A DNA stretch of 64,000 bases. It comes from Alphaproteobacteria bacterium (lineage in GTDB: Bacteria > Pseudomonadota > Alphaproteobacteria > Rs-D84). The stretch's first letter is position 1, and every line of letters starts with the position of its first letter. Shown here piece after piece: positions 18,649-63,960 of the stretch. The stretch lies in the NCBI GenBank assembly GCA_015062545.1, contig SUUL01000004.1, forward strand, positions 1 to 64,000, read 5' to 3'. The notes under the pieces are model-generated. The model saw only the letters and a program-made list of their open reading frames with translations. It did not search any database and was not told the origin of the DNA. A program made the position numbers and the translations under genes.

Positions 18649-19164
18649 ATGAAAAATCAAAAAACAGTAAAAATTGTACACAGTCCAAAACAACGTTTTT
18701 GGGGAATTATGGCTTTGGTGGCTTTGTTCGGTTGTGGTGTGATGGTTGGGGTCGGAATGAATTCTGACAAGGTGGAATCTGTAAATAATGTTGAGACGCA
18801 AGAAGTTGCCCAACCACAAAAAACATGTGTGCAAATTGAAGAATTGTTAGCAGAACGTTTGCCGGAACCAGATGGTCAGGGTGAATTGCGCATTATACGT
18901 GCAAAAATATTTGCACAGATGTCTGAACGTGGGTGTCCGGAAAATTCTGAAAAATATGTTGCGTTGGCAAAACAGGAATTAGAGATTGCACGTGCGTTGG
19001 AAGATGATGAATTCGACCAATATGAAACAATAGAAGTCGTTGAAACGTACAAGCGTCTTGATATGCAGGCGGCTGCAGAAGAAATTTTGGAAACAGCAAA
19101 AAAATTAACAAATCCCGCGATAGATTTTATTTTGGAAGTTGAAAAAATAATCAATGAACAATAG
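18649..19164 (+). CDS. Unknown inner-membrane-anchored protein
   Basis: 171 aa. A basic N-terminus (residues 1-16) precedes one hydrophobic segment (about 17-37, FWGIMALVALFGCGVMVGVGM), so the protein is a single-pass membrane protein or an uncleaved exported one with a periplasmic helical domain of about 130 residues. The domain is rich in Glu, Ala and Leu and may form helical hairpins; two Cys residues (near 60 and 97) might pair. I do not know a family. AAAGGGAGAG gives a strong ribosome site. The gene overlaps the next (19175) and follows lolD after 22 bases, so it belongs to the same operon. Confidence 0.7.
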   Translation: MKNQKTVKIVHSPKQRFWGIMALVALFGCGVMVGVGMNSDKVESVNNVETQEVAQPQKTCVQIEELLAERLPEPDGQGELRIIRAKIFAQMSERGCPENSEKYVALAKQELEIARALEDDEFDQYETIEVVETYKRLDMQAAAEEILETAKKLTNPAIDFILEVEKIINEQ

Positions 19165-19174
19165 GTTTGAAACA

Positions 19175-19738
19175 ATGAAAAAAATTATGTTCTTATTTGG
19201 TTTGTGTGTCTGCATGCCTGCTGTGGCCGAAGAAGGGGCGGCAGAAAATACAAAAACTGAAACAGTGGTTGTAGAGCGTATGTCCTGTTCAGATATGCAG
19301 GCACGTATCAAGGAATTAAGTGATGTAGAAGATGAAACCGGTGATGTTGCAGCAGAAATTGCCAGTTTAACCCAGGATTATCGCCGCAGTTGTATGCGAT
19401 CTGCAGCAGGGAGGCGGGCATCTACCACCACACGTGCGCCTGTGATTGTGGCAGAACCAGAACAGGTGGAAGAGGTTGAACCAGAACAGGCAACAGAAGA
19501 GGTCCCTGTTGAAACAGAAACTGTTGTGGAAGAGGTGTCTGTCGCAGAAGAAGTTGTGTCAGAAATTACACCAGAGCAAGAATTGGCAAATTTGGATGCG
19601 GGTTTATGTGCAGACGGCAGCAAGCCAAATCAATTTGGTTGTTGTGGGGATGAAATATTCAAGGATTTGGGTGATGCAATATTTGCGTGTTGCCCAAGGG
19701 GTGACGACACAACTGAATGTTTTCCGCCAATAAATTAA
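19175..19738 (+). CDS. Exported acidic Cys-rich protein
   Basis: 187 aa from the ATG at 19175. The N-terminus MKKIMFLFGLCVCMPAVAEE is a clear Sec signal with a cleavage site after AVA. The mature protein has a helical part, a low-complexity acidic region (about 95-140, repeats of VEE/EPEQ/ETE) and a C-terminal Cys cluster in a GLCADGSKPNQFGCCGD to CCPRGDDTTECFPP pattern, with seven Cys in about 45 residues that should be disulfide-bonded. An upstream ATG at 19154 in the same frame would place charged residues in front of the signal, so I prefer 19175. The start overlaps the end of the preceding gene. The stop codon lies inside the left arm of the 104-bp repeat that follows. Confidence 0.7.
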   Translation: MKKIMFLFGLCVCMPAVAEEGAAENTKTETVVVERMSCSDMQARIKELSDVEDETGDVAAEIASLTQDYRRSCMRSAAGRRASTTTRAPVIVAEPEQVEEVEPEQATEEVPVETETVVEEVSVAEEVVSEITPEQELANLDAGLCADGSKPNQFGCCGDEIFKDLGDAIFACCPRGDDTTECFPPIN

Positions 19739-19835
19739 ATCTAATGACTTATCTAAAAGGAAAAACGATGGCTCATGTAACTTTTGTACACTACGCCATC
19801 GTTTTCCCTTTTATCTAAATCATTATCTTTAATTT
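19732..19835. repeat. 104-bp hairpin repeat, copy A
   Basis: The element is bounded by the inverted termini AAATTAAA and TTTAATTT. Further inward pairings are TAATGA/TCATTA and AAAAGG/CCTTTT. A central 11-bp stem, AAAACGATGGC (19762-19772) with GCCATCGTTTT (19795-19805), carries the 22-nt loop 19773-19794 (TCATGTA, 7 variable bases ending in TG, TACACTAC). It differs from copy B (63685-63788) at about one position. It begins inside the stop region of the preceding gene. Confidence 0.85.
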
Positions 19836-42905: not shown

Positions 42906-43766
42906 TTATATACCTTTCTTGTTCGATAATGGATGATGATTTGTTATCGTTTCTTTTAATTTTTCTGGCATTACATGGGTGTAGATTTGTGTTGTTGATA
43001 TATCTTCGTGTCCCAACATCGTTTGTATTGCACGCAGGTTTGCGCCGCCCGCCAATAAGTGTGATGCAAAGGAATGACGCAAGACGTGGGGCGATACGCG
43101 TTTTGGGTCAATGCCAGATAAAACTGCACATTTTTTTATTAGTTTGAAAAATGCGTCACGTGTTATGTGACCGGTTTTGCCACGGGATGGAAATACGTAC
43201 TTTGAATCAATGTCGCCACGTGCATCCAACCATTTATTTAATGCATGAATTGCAGCATCGTGCATCGGCACCAGGCGTTCTTTTGCGCCCTTGCCATGAA
43301 TTAATAATTTGTTCCCCAGTATGCCTGTCATGGGTAATTCGCACAATTCTGATATGCGCAAGCCCGATGCGTAAAGTAATTCAATCATGGCACGCAGACG
43401 GGTTGCAGTTTTTATGTCGCCAGCACTGGATATTAATAATTCAATTTCGTGTGGTGACAAGAATTTAGGTAAATTGTGTTCGCGTTTGGGTAATTCCAGA
43501 TTAGTTGTTGGATTTTGTGTAATAATTTTCTCTAGCATCAAAAATTTATAAAATCCACGCAGTGCAGATGCTTTGCGCGCAATAGATGATGGTTTGTCCG
43601 GCAGGTTGGACAGATAATTTTGTATGTCTGTGGCGGTTGCGTTCATTAACCCGACAGGTATGGCTTCGTTCGCCAAGCGCAAGTCTGATTCATAGCTGGT
43701 TAATGTTTTGTTGCTGCATCCTTTTTCCGCGACAAGTGCTTCAAGAAATATGTCTATATAGTTCAT
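42906..43766 (-). CDS. xerD: Tyrosine recombinase XerC/XerD
   Basis: 286 aa from the ATG at 43764-43766. Xer recombinases resolve chromosome dimers at dif together with FtsK. The SAM-like core-binding domain covers about 1-90; in the catalytic domain the residues are visible in ASGLRISELCELP (Arg), HGKGAKERLVP (Lys), HVLRHSFASHLL (His and Arg), LGHEDISTTQIYTHV (His and the nucleophile Tyr). A longer frame to 43850 would overlap the small membrane-protein gene. The start overlaps the stop codon of that gene (ATGA). Whether it is XerC or XerD is not certain, although TTQIYTHV is the XerD-like form. ftsK is at 52481. Confidence 0.9.
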   Translation of the reverse strand: MNYIDIFLEALVAEKGCSNKTLTSYESDLRLANEAIPVGLMNATATDIQNYLSNLPDKPSSIARKASALRGFYKFLMLEKIITQNPTTNLELPKREHNLPKFLSPHEIELLISSAGDIKTATRLRAMIELLYASGLRISELCELPMTGILGNKLLIHGKGAKERLVPMHDAAIHALNKWLDARGDIDSKYVFPSRGKTGHITRDAFFKLIKKCAVLSGIDPKRVSPHVLRHSFASHLLAGGANLRAIQTMLGHEDISTTQIYTHVMPEKLKETITNHHPLSNKKGI

Positions 43767-43897
43767 GGGTACACCACAATTTCTGTCATGTGTTGGGCAG
43801 GCGGAAATGATATAATCATTAATATGATGATGGCAATGCATAAGGCCCATAATAAAAATTTGCGGAATGTTGGATTTTTCTTCTTTTTAATAGGCAT
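43763..43897 (-). CDS. Small single-pass membrane protein, 44 aa
   Basis: The frame reads MPIKKKKNPTFRKFLLWALC, then a hydrophobic run (IAIIILMIISF) and the tail PPAQHMTEIVVYP before TGA. A Lys-rich N-terminus and one membrane helix (about 14-32) predict an N-in, single-pass topology. AAAGGTGA is well placed 8 bases before the ATG, and the stop codon overlaps the xerD start as ATGA, a typical coupling signature. It sits between lptG and xerD in a tight operon. These features together argue for a real gene although it is too short for most gene finders. Function unknown; a role with LptG or the envelope is possible from context. Confidence 0.7.
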   Translation of the reverse strand: MPIKKKKNPTFRKFLLWALCIAIIILMIISFPPAQHMTEIVVYP

Positions 43898-52480: not shown

Positions 52481-54763
52481 ATGGCAAAGAAATCAACTTT
52501 TTTACCGGGCAGTATATCAGATGCTTTGCGGTCAATGTCCAGCCGATTGGTGGGGGTGTTGATTTTTCTGATTGGTGGATGGGCGACATGTGCGTTGTTG
52601 TTTTATAATCCGTATTTAGATGGATTTGGTGTGGCCAGTACGTTGGGTGGTCAGTCTGTGATGGGATGGATTGTTGGATGTATCCGTTATGGTGTTGGTG
52701 CGGTGCCGGCATTGTTTCTGTTTTTGTGTGTGATGCGATTCGGTTTTGTGAAGTTGGTTGGATTGCATGGTGATTATGCGCCAGAATATGATTTCTTGCG
52801 TGGGTTTATTGCATTGTGTTTGGGGGCGGTTGGATTGGGCTTGATGTCGCCAAATGCATCTTATGGCGGGCTGTTTGGTGCGATTGCGGCGGCGGATTTG
52901 ATGGCGCTGATGGGTAATGTTGCAATTATTGTTGGAATTTTTTCTTTTGTTGGTTTTTTGTGGATGGCGGGCAGCTTGTTGCATGTGCGTTTGTCGCATT
53001 TGCGGTGGGCAATGCGCTTGATGTACAAGTGGTTGCGCGTTATTGCCGCGGCGTTCAGATTGACAGATATGACCCCTGCCCAAGTGTTGGCAGAATCTGA
53101 TGATGAAGAAGATATAGAAGAAGACGAAGAGATTGGGGAAGATGAAGAAGAGGCTTCAGAAGAAAAGCCAAAGCGCAGTTTGCTGGGACGTAAAAACCAA
53201 AAGAAAGTGGCGGGTGCTGTGGCCGCGGTTGCCACGCCAAAGCGTGCGCGCGCGGGAACGCAATTCAAATTGCCAGATCCGAAAATGTTGGAAAAGTCAA
53301 ATTTCAGTAAATATTCTGTAACACCAGAATTAAAGCAAAATGCCCGCAGTATGGAAGTGAAATTTGCGCAATATGGTGTGCGTGGCAAGGTGGTTGGAAT
53401 CAAGCCTGGGCCAATCGTTACTTTGTATGAATTTATGCCAGATGATGGTACGCGTATGGCGGATGTTAATAAAACTGTAACAGATATGACGCGCGCGATG
53501 GCAACAGAAAGTATTCGTATCGCACATATTCCACGTACACAATTAATTGGTGTAGAAATGGTGAACTTAACCCGTCAAACTGTGCGTTATCGTGGTCTGA
53601 TGGAAAATCCGCTGTTTGTGGAATCTAAATATAAAATACCATTGGCGTTGGGGGTTGATATTGGTGGCAATCCAATGTTCTTTGATTTGGCGAAAATGCC
53701 GCACATGCTGGTTGCAGGGCGTACAGGGTCTGGTAAGTCTGTGTTTGTACAATCAATTATTACGTCTATTGTGTATCACTTTACACCAGACAAGTGTAAA
53801 CTGATTATTATTGACCCAAAGGGTGTTGACTTTGGTTTTTGGGATGATATTCCACATTTAATCACACCGATTGTTAAGTTAGAACCAGAGCCGGCTGTAA
53901 ATGCTTTGAAATGGGCGGTGCGTGAAATGGAAGAACGTTATAAACAATTACAGGTTCTGAATGCGCGCAATATTGAAAGTTATAATGAAATTGCAGCGCA
54001 GAAACGCGAGGCTGGTGAAAAAATTACTAAACAAGTCGCAGTTGGTACAGACGAAGAAACCGGGGAATTATTATTTGAAACCCAAGAAGTAGATTTGTCA
54101 GATATGCCATATATGGTCATTATTATTGACGAGGTTGCGGATTTGATGAGTTTGGCGCGTAAAGACGTAGAAGCCTGTGTGCAACGTATTGCACAAAAGG
54201 CACGTGCGGCGGGTATTCACTTGGTTATGGCGACCCAGCGTCCAGACGCAACAACAATTACAGGTGTTATCAAGGCAAATTTCCCAACGCGTATTTCTTT
54301 CCAGGCGCGCAGCCGTATTGATAGTGTGACATGTCTGGGTGAAGGCGGGGCAGAGCAGTTATTGGCAATGGGTGACATGTTATTCAGCGAGGCCGGCCGC
54401 GTTCCTGTGCGTATCCATGGTGCGTTTATCGATGACAATGAATTGAAACGTATTGGTGATTTCTTGCGCAGTCAAGGCGCGCCAGAATATGCCGAAGGCG
54501 TTACGGATTCTGCCGATGGTGGCATGGGGGGTGGCGATATTGCCGGCATCCCAGGGGCGATTGGTGGTGCGTCTGGGGATAAAGATGCGGATTTATATGC
54601 GCGCGCCAAAGAATGTGTTTTGCGTGATAAAAAACCGACAATTTCTTATATTCAGCGCCGTTTACAAATTGGCTATAACAAGGCTGCAGGCTTTATGGAA
54701 CGCATGGAAGAAGATGGTATTGTGTCTGCGCCTGATGCAAATAACAAACGTCACATCCTGTAA
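52481..54763 (+). CDS. ftsK: DNA translocase FtsK
   Basis: 760 aa. FtsK pumps the chromosome through the closing septum and activates XerCD recombination at dif. Four N-terminal helices (about 20-40, 65-90, 105-125, 138-160) anchor it; an acidic/Lys linker (about 205-260, DEEDIEEDEEIGEDEEEASE) follows; the motor has Walker A GRTGSGKSV (about 413-421), Walker B MVIIIDEVADLM (about 545-556), and the RAAGIHLVMATQRPDATTIT region. A winged-helix gamma domain (about 700-760, PTISYIQRRLQIGYNKAAGF) reads KOPS. The stop codon is immediately followed by repeat copy C. xerD is at 42906 on the other strand. Confidence 0.97.
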   Translation: MAKKSTFLPGSISDALRSMSSRLVGVLIFLIGGWATCALLFYNPYLDGFGVASTLGGQSVMGWIVGCIRYGVGAVPALFLFLCVMRFGFVKLVGLHGDYAPEYDFLRGFIALCLGAVGLGLMSPNASYGGLFGAIAAADLMALMGNVAIIVGIFSFVGFLWMAGSLLHVRLSHLRWAMRLMYKWLRVIAAAFRLTDMTPAQVLAESDDEEDIEEDEEIGEDEEEASEEKPKRSLLGRKNQKKVAGAVAAVATPKRARAGTQFKLPDPKMLEKSNFSKYSVTPELKQNARSMEVKFAQYGVRGKVVGIKPGPIVTLYEFMPDDGTRMADVNKTVTDMTRAMATESIRIAHIPRTQLIGVEMVNLTRQTVRYRGLMENPLFVESKYKIPLALGVDIGGNPMFFDLAKMPHMLVAGRTGSGKSVFVQSIITSIVYHFTPDKCKLIIIDPKGVDFGFWDDIPHLITPIVKLEPEPAVNALKWAVREMEERYKQLQVLNARNIESYNEIAAQKREAGEKITKQVAVGTDEETGELLFETQEVDLSDMPYMVIIIDEVADLMSLARKDVEACVQRIAQKARAAGIHLVMATQRPDATTITGVIKANFPTRISFQARSRIDSVTCLGEGGAEQLLAMGDMLFSEAGRVPVRIHGAFIDDNELKRIGDFLRSQGAPEYAEGVTDSADGGMGGGDIAGIPGAIGGASGDKDADLYARAKECVLRDKKPTISYIQRRLQIGYNKAAGFMERMEEDGIVSAPDANNKRHIL

Positions 54764-54865
54764 ATTAAATATAATAATTCATCTACAAGCGGTGCCGGCA
54801 ATTCATGTAGCGTCTGTACACTACATTGCCGGCACTACTTGTATCTAAATCATTATCTTTAATTT
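54762..54865. repeat. 104-bp hairpin repeat, copy C
   Basis: Same length and termini as copy A (AAATTAAA at 54762, TTTAATTT ending at 54865) but different stems: TACAAG/CTTGTA in place of AAAAGG/CCTTTT, and GTGCCGGCAAT (54792-54802) with ATTGCCGGCAC (54825-54835) in place of AAAACGATGGC/GCCATCGTTTT. The 22-nt loop (54803-54824) keeps TCATGTA, TG and TACACTAC. It starts in the stop codon of ftsK. Confidence 0.85.
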
Positions 54866-62961: not shown

Positions 62962-63678
62962 ATGAGTGGACACAGTAAATGGCATAATATTCAACATAAA
63001 AAGGGCGCGGCAGACGCTGCACGCAGTGGCTTGTTTACCAAGTTGGCACGTGAAATTACAATGGCGGCAAAGTTGGGCGATAAAAATCCTGATAATAACC
63101 CACGCCTTCGCTTGGCGATTTTGACAGCCCGCAAAAATTCTATGCCAAATGATAACATCAAGCGCGCGATTGACAAGGCATCTGGCGCGAACACAGAAAG
63201 CTATGAAGCGGTACGTTACGAAGGGTATGGACCGGGGGCTGTACCTGTTATCGTAGAAGCCTTGACCGATAACCCACGCCGTACAGTGCCAGAAATCCGT
63301 AATATCTTTGCCAAAAATGGTGGTAATATGGGCGAAGAAGGTTCTGTTGTATTTATGTTTACACGCGCGGGTCAAATCATGTACCCGGCATCAATCGGTA
63401 AAACCGAAGATGAAATGATGGAAATTATTATGGAAGCAAATGCGGATAATTTGGAAACATCAGAAGAGGGCTTTATCATCACAACAAAACCCGAAGATTT
63501 TATCAACGCACAAAAATACTTGGCGGATATTTTGGGTGAACCAGAACAGGCAGAATTAACCTGGTTACCAAACATGCCAATGGATTTGGATGATGAAGCG
63601 TATGCCAAAATTGAAAAATTGGTAGATGCGCTGGATGCAAATGATGATGTGCAGAAGGTGTTTACAGCGGCTGCCTAA
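62962..63678 (+). CDS. yebC: YebC/PmpR-family protein
   Basis: 238 aa, the usual length. Members bind DNA as transcription regulators in some bacteria, and recent work links them to ribosomal elongation through difficult peptide stretches; the role here is open. The N-terminus MSGHSKWHNIQHKKGAADAA is the family's hallmark, followed by FTKLAREITMAAKLG (about 27-41), NPRLRLAI, ARKNSMPNDNIKRAI (about 55-69) and YEGYGPGAVPVIVEALTDNP (about 89-108). AAAAAGG precedes the ATG. It is divergent from ruvA by 50 bases, a common neighbourhood for yebC. A cluster of three repeat units begins a few bases after its stop codon. Confidence 0.95.
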   Translation: MSGHSKWHNIQHKKGAADAARSGLFTKLAREITMAAKLGDKNPDNNPRLRLAILTARKNSMPNDNIKRAIDKASGANTESYEAVRYEGYGPGAVPVIVEALTDNPRRTVPEIRNIFAKNGGNMGEEGSVVFMFTRAGQIMYPASIGKTEDEMMEIIMEANADNLETSEEGFIITTKPEDFINAQKYLADILGEPEQAELTWLPNMPMDLDDEAYAKIEKLVDALDANDDVQKVFTAAA

Positions 63679-63684
63679 AAAAAT

Positions 63685-63788
63685 AAATTAAATCTAATGA
63701 CTTATCTAAAAGGAAAAACGATGGCTCATGTAACTTTTGTACACTACGCCATCGTTTTTCCTTTTATCTAAATCATTATCTTTAATTT
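63685..63788. repeat. 104-bp hairpin repeat, copy B
   Basis: Practically identical to copy A (about one difference over 104 bases, in the T/C run at the right stem) although 44 kb away. It begins 7 bases after the yebC stop codon and is the first of three units in tandem. Confidence 0.85.
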
Positions 63789-63881
63789 CTTTCGCTAATC
63801 TTGGGGTTGGGTGGAATCTCATGTATCGCATGTACACTACGATTCCCGATTTGTTTTTATCTAAATCATTATCTTTAATTT
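63789..63881. repeat. Hairpin repeat, copy D (left arm divergent)
   Basis: The right half (TTTTTATCTAAATCATTATC then TTTAATTT, 63856-63881) equals copy B. The central stem is GGAATC (63813-63818) with GATTCC (63841-63846) around the conserved loop 63819-63840 (TCATGTA, TCGCATG, TACACTAC). The left outer arm is not recognisable. Confidence 0.75.
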
Positions 63882-63960
63882 CTTACCATCGCAAGGAGTT
63901 GTTGGGCGATGGCTTATGTAACTTGGTGTACACTACGCCATCGTTTTTGGTTTTTTTATC
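63882..63960. repeat. Hairpin repeat, copy E (terminator-like)
   Basis: CGATGGC (63907-63913) pairs with GCCATCG (63937-63943) around a 23-nt loop (TTATGTA, ACTTGGTG, TACACTAC). A third segment, CCATCGC (63886-63892), can pair with GCGATGG (63906-63912) instead, so two hairpins compete. A T-rich stretch follows (TTTTTGGTTTTTTT). The outer arms TTTAATTT are missing on the right. Confidence 0.7.

Follow-up and report, generated by a model that had tools for sequence, protein, structure and literature searches.

A family of nested 104-nt hairpins with variable stems and fixed unpaired bases behind stop codons in gut Alphaproteobacteria and Clostridia

Integron attC sites lie in sense orientation behind stop codons, with variable stems and fixed unpaired bases that are recognized in the folded strand. 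TnpA-REP recognizes single-stranded hairpins by their mismatches and loop bases, requires both, and cuts at CT (PMC8266576), and IS608 and ISDra2 choose their targets on the lagging-strand template (PMC6006769). In E. coli, ribosomes stall at REPs that lie no more than 15 nt from a stop codon (PMC12306157). Here we describe hairpins found in the window, the 64-kb stretch of DNA analysed here (contig SUUL01000004.1, positions 1-64,000, forward strand; assembly GCA_015062545.1, Alphaproteobacteria bacterium).

The window contains five units, three of them full (104 nt) and two of them half units, and the full ones score 105-108 bits with covariance model R1 (E 1e-28 or better). Unit 1 (19732..19835, + strand; 105.8 bits) consists, from the foot upwards, of P1 (AAATTAAA/TTTAATTT), an ATCT/ATCT mismatch, P2, a second ATCT/ATCT mismatch, P3 (AAAAGGAAAAACGATGGC/GCCATCGTTTTCCCTTTT) and the apex (19773-19794, TCATGTA-ACTTTTG-TACACTAC). 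The gene 5' of this unit (19154..19738, +) encodes 194 aa with no NCBIfam match, and its stop codon (19736-19738) and the preceding codon sit within P1. Unit 2 (54762..54865, +; 104.8 bits) has P3 arms ACAAGCGGTGCCGGCAAT/ATTGCCGGCACTACTTGT and an apex at 54803-54824 with GCGTCTG as its seven variable bases (N7). It overlaps the stop codon (54761-54763) of an ftsK-like gene (52481..54763, +) that matches PRK10263 below its curated cut-off. Unit 3 (63685..63788, +; 108.1 bits), with a stem close to that of unit 1, begins 6 nt past the stop codon (63676-63678) of yebC (62962..63678, +; PRK00110, above its cut-off) and is followed by the two half units in tandem. The first half unit (63789..63881, +) has the spacer CTTTCGCTAATCTTGGGGTTGGG, a short inner stem GGAATC/GATTCC, an apex at 63819-63840 and a complete right arm; the second (63882..63960, +) has a spacer with GCAAGGAG, the inner stem GCGATGGC/GCCATCG, an apex at 63914-63936 with 8 variable bases instead of 7, and a right arm decayed into T-rich sequence. 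Both keep the apex and inner stem without a left outer arm, and they match R1 only in part (63813-63846 and 63907-63943, at 25 and 23 bits). An earlier note on this DNA had counted at least five hairpin units with stems that differ between copies yet pair. The pairing is as it described, but two of its five units are the half units and two others, at 19732 and 63685, have nearly the same stem, leaving three distinct stems plus minor variants. A 24-mer of the right arm occurs four times at up to 3 mismatches, against none in 100 shuffles, and a scan of the bacterial family for the apex pattern gave hundreds of matches against about 2 for the reversed control. These two controls exclude chance.

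A full unit is one long hairpin, a 104-nt nested palindrome in which P1, P2 and P3 vary freely yet pair. P1 is AT-rich and 8-12 bp long and is separated from P2 by a mismatch zone. Between P2 and P3 lies the fixed ATCT/ATCT mismatch. The arms of P3 measure about 18 bp, with an irregularity 13-15 bp below the apex, and the apex itself has the consensus T[YA]TGTA-N7-TACA-C[TR]C with one bulged C. The lengths of the unit and of P3 (mostly 18/18, 17/18 or 18/19) are near constant despite the variable sequence. All 48 aligned units carry ATCT/ATCT without variation, in a set chosen for ATCT on both sides; among 187 unfiltered apex hits it is present on both sides in 125 and on the right in 171, and many hits that lack the left ATCT are half units or belong to a second type. 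At the apical Y/R position of these 187 hits we counted 98 C.A, 74 T.G, 12 T.A and 3 C.G, so that wobble is preferred over Watson-Crick pairing, which accounts for only 15. The loop itself is less fixed than the earlier note had it: the TCATGTA/TACACTAC frame, taken there as invariant, exists in co-varying C..A (98/187) and T..G (74/187) versions, and the TG said to end the seven variable bases gives way in other copies to AC, AA or AG, in which case the first and last of the seven can pair.

Units of the second type lie behind rpoA (L054 3761, L036, L042, L046, L048) and carry TTGTC / TTCCAA in place of ATCT/ATCT; several species have retained this type at the end of rpoA, where its changes are compensatory. 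Tandem arrays with a period of about 80-105 were seen in the window (63789-63960), after the first unit of L222 and at L143 5885-6200. Their second and later units retain the apex and right arm, while the place of the left outer arm is taken by a spacer that often contains GCAAGGGGTTGGG or the variant of it particular to that genome.

Compensatory change was examined in 25 indel-free units aligned with plain MAFFT: 91.0% of cells are paired, and both partners have changed in 30 of 42 pairs. The alignment has a covariation score of 0.498. Shuffles, which do not preserve relatedness, score 0.157, and slid controls, which preserve it but are biased towards a structure derived from these very sequences, score 0.07-0.13; double-change cells number 202, against 67 shuffled and 31-63 slid. 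RNAalifold, run on 48 units, gave 35 pairs, 27 of them with double changes. The proposal that the folded form is under selection is thereby supported, with the reservation that palindrome arms may also stay alike by template switching, and pairing alone need not mean selection.

The stem changes go directly from one Watson-Crick pair to another with little G.U: P1 has 1 G.T and 2 A.C in 200 cells, and P3 has 12 G.T and 19 A.C in 475 cells. The resulting G.T:A.C ratio of 13:21 differs from 14:4 in tRNA acceptor and terminator stems (Fisher p = 0.009), a control set drawn from the same loci that is small (18 mismatches); terminators taken as an RNA control yielded only 21 mismatched stems. Single mismatch events in a larger P3 set, outside the irregular positions, came to 34 G.T and 19 A.C. 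The asymmetry thus depends on the set, and no count shows the G.U enrichment of an ordinary RNA helix. Watson-Crick swaps without a G.U preference suggest DNA rather than RNA, and the direction of the counts speaks against selection on an RNA fold.

The position of the units relative to genes is regular. The apex lies 20-60 nt past a sense stop codon in 92 of 108 unit clusters, antisense stops show no such peak, and units share the sense orientation of the host gene. The host stop is TAA in nearly all units and often falls within P1, otherwise a few bases before it. At some genes the coding end itself doubles as the left P1 arm, with pairing intact; coding bases are paired in 98% of 121 cases inside P1 and in 29% outside. 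In all, 39 gene families host 132 unit clusters, operon interiors included (after S13, S11 and RpoA), and the host gene's own terminator is often found 3' of the unit. Named from their C-termini, the host families include EF-P (21), YebC (9), FtsK (7), RpoA (6), S11, S13, S18, DnaA and FabF.

In the 24 contigs with at least two clusters, all 75 clusters lie on one strand per contig, for which the chance is 2e-11 if 69% of genes are on the leading strand, 4e-4 at 90% and 0.02 at 95%. By local GC skew, 108 of 111 units are on the G-rich (leading) strand, compared with 64-69% of ORFs. This leading-strand rule is strong but partly confounded, because local skew is shaped in part by the sense of the genes and because core genes tend to lie on the leading strand. 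Together, the near-absence of G.U and the single strand per contig favour DNA over RNA, without proving it. The GC skew of the window is positive in every 8-kb step (0.07-0.28), which is large for a bacterial chromosome arm.

Further copies, sought with the covariance model as the earlier note had suggested, are numerous. The window's own 0.94-Mb genome holds about 16 full copies and additional partial ones, many of them in tandem. The apex motif is present in 74 of 142 genomes of the family, at 0-28 copies per genome. A stricter, exact pattern found none in about 330 genomes of other Alphaproteobacteria families. Searched with the exact apex pattern, many complete genomes of the same genus gave no match either, including one that is 100% and several that are 99% complete. 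Viral contigs gave no match to the unit. Among the matches listed in a scan of GTDB genomes, gut Alphaproteobacteria (Ca. Enterousia and relatives) were joined by a single MAG of the Clostridia (G491), which has 4 model hits on 4 contigs; with G515, G517, G629 and G654, five of at most 234 clostridial genomes searched have model hits. The clostridial copies keep the apex, the right ATCT and the same layout, with stems unrelated to those of Alphaproteobacteria, and are diverged relatives. Several of them (L235, L236 and others) have a short open frame running through the hairpin, and the peptides it would encode are similar (MYTEYTALVQTHDLNDF). A coding reading was rejected since the 8-nt variable part of the pcrA copy in G515 shifts the frame and L238 has a stop; the open frame is probably an accident of the palindrome.

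Stem sequences follow the genome rather than the gene. Stem identity between units at different genes of the same genome is 0.517 (permutation maximum 0.460), and that between units at the same gene in different genomes is 0.410, no better than chance (permutation mean 0.396). The 3' ends of yebC in related species carry unrelated units or a plain terminator only. Moreover, some units (L092, L097, L103, L141) are chimeric, with arms of different subfamilies meeting at the apex, and the helical layers assort in part. We take these observations to mean that units disperse and are exchanged within genomes. Units kept vertically are seen as well: the second type behind rpoA and the clostridial pcrA units at orthologous genes of G491 and G515. 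Classical MITEs are defined by a target-site duplication and by terminal repeats that match an IS of the genome; by eye, the flanks of the units show no constant duplication, and no two close strains were seen of which one has a unit at a site that is empty in the other.

At yebC of G065 (L061 / L035), the right arm contains 18 bases that repeat the left side in inverted form and take in 9 bases of the yebC end, stop codon included, an apparent hairpin-templated copy of host sequence. General copying of host flanks into the right arm was rejected: pairing extends past P1 by a mean of 1.37 bp where 0.76 is expected, and outside P1 the pairing of coding bases stays at chance level, so such copying is only occasional.

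We also searched for a protein that could move the units. The Y1_Tnp domain (PF01797) is absent from the window's own genome and from the unit-bearing genomes G049, G059, G076, G116, G629 and G654; it was found in 5 of 142 family genomes, none of them among the unit-rich ones tested, and in the unit-bearing clostridia G491 and G515. Across the relatives and the unit-bearing clostridia, a RAYT/REP mover of this type showed no link to the units and was rejected. An origin as a retroelement or group II intron product was discarded because the window's own genome has no RVT_1 match, and an extra integrase because tyrosine recombinase counts do not follow unit number (12 units and 2 recombinases in G083). 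The window itself contains a tyrosine recombinase gene (42906-43850, - strand), the genome's best PF00589 match and probably XerC or XerD.

Our best explanation, to which we assign about an even chance, is that the units are non-autonomous DNA hairpin elements, a REP-like family dispersed over the genome that spreads as folded single-stranded DNA. In its favour stand the covariation, the Watson-Crick swaps with little G.U, the fixed ATCT/ATCT and apical wobble, stems that follow the genome, the differing yebC 3' ends, the single G-rich strand per contig, the 39 host gene families and the clostridial copies of like layout. The element would act on the lagging-strand template, which is single-stranded at the fork and carries exactly the strand with the unit's fixed bases. 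There, a putative protein might read the mismatches and apex, by analogy with the way TnpA-REP, IS200/IS605 TnpA or IntI read hairpins, and copy or exchange the element into other gene ends, with insertions elsewhere mostly lost. A TnpA-REP-like enzyme would be well served by the unpaired ATCT on either side of the foot of P3, and arm complementarity could be kept partly by selection and partly by hairpin-templated copying. Several observations count against mobile DNA hairpins: the searches above found no mover, neither a target-site duplication nor a filled site with an empty counterpart in a close strain was seen, insertion alone does not explain the tight placement at sense stop codons, and the pcrA units at orthologous clostridial genes look vertical. 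A broader claim would make the units a class of mobile DNA that spans phyla, is defined not by sequence but by its fold and fixed mismatches, and moves as single-stranded hairpins at forks into gene 3' ends through a kind of enzyme not yet described; we consider it rather doubtful.

The main rival is a structured 3'-UTR RNA at the stop codon that changes the termination, translation or decay of the upstream message, with a protein binding the AUCU/AUCU internal loop and the apex. We judge it rather unlikely. In its favour, the units of both phyla invariably follow the sense of the host gene and sit at its stop codon, they lie inside operons (after S13, S11 and RpoA), and REPs at most 15 nt from the stop offer a precedent (PMC12306157); moreover, the strand rule may partly reflect leading-strand core genes (chance 0.02 if 95% of genes lie there). 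Such an RNA would fit poorly with copy numbers of 0-28 per genome, with stems that track the genome and not the gene, and with the variation in presence and stem type at one gene between related species; the G.U preference of RNA helices is also missing, judged against controls that are small (18 mismatches). The same strand and position rules, together with the fixed mismatch motif, would be expected of a host DNA element, no longer mobile, whose hairpin is extruded on the lagging-strand template at gene ends and binds a replication or transcription-coupling protein. Given the many complete genomes of the genus without the exact apex pattern and the lack of a fixed set of loci, we regard this as quite improbable.

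Least probable, in our assessment, is that the fold is under no selection at all, with replication template switching keeping the palindromes perfect and ordinary gene conversion spreading them. Changes between Watson-Crick pairs only, the chimeras and tandem half units, and the right arm of L061/L035 that copies 9 bases of the yebC 3' end with its stop codon would all be accounted for. However, the ATCT/ATCT mismatch and the apical C.A or T.G wobble persist although such copying alone would heal both, and the never-healed mismatch points to selection.

With paired positions nearly all free and unpaired ones frozen, the units offer a clean test, set up by nature, of how nucleic acid can be recognized by structure alone. 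If they move, small-genome gut bacteria and clostridia contain a single-strand enzyme still to be discovered; if they work at the RNA level, a regulator tied to the stop codon has been overlooked in core genes (efp, rpoA, rpsK, ftsK, dnaA). Either way, a repeat that determines the final codons and the stop of some proteins is added to the annotation of these genomes.

The earlier note recognized no described repeat of this kind, and our searches agree: Rfam gave no match over the curated threshold (sub-threshold hits were mostly microRNA hairpins), and the literature searched included REP papers but nothing that describes this family. Intrinsic terminators share the hairpin behind the stop codon; that the units also lie mid-operon, and often have a separate terminator after them, argues against their being terminators. 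The units do not look like a compact GC-rich hairpin with a T-run, and their T-rich right foot is part of P1. Integron attC sites are alike in their sense placement behind stop codons, variable stems and fixed unpaired bases, whereas R/L boxes (GTTRRRY/RYYYAAC) were not seen by eye at the foot of the unit consensus and the hosts are housekeeping genes instead of cassettes. The end hairpins of IS200/IS605 have mismatched bases and a lagging-strand-template bias (PMC6006769); unlike them, the units have no transposase gene and form a single hairpin instead of two ends. CGTC-type REPs of Alphaproteobacteria are likewise palindromes with no known dedicated transposase (PMC3733652), but their 8-9 bp stems, 4-5 nt loops and CGTC tag are all missing from the units. 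The REP/BIME/REPIN systems with RAYT come closest, as dispersed extragenic palindromes in many copies, mostly 3' of genes, in stem-differing families with conserved mismatches and loop bases, and with a single strand recognized in REPs (PMC3733652, PMC8266576). Unlike REPs of 20-40 nt, the units have 104 nt in nested layers, occur in one orientation only with no head-to-head pairs seen, and have an AT-rich P1 as foot in place of a GTAG or CGTC tag (in the alignment, GTAG appears only where the apical N7 begins with G); the Y1 transposase is missing from the unit-rich genomes tested. The units thus work like REPs but lack two of three tested defining features, the foot tag and the RAYT gene, and are best read as a new family of the dispersed-palindrome kind.
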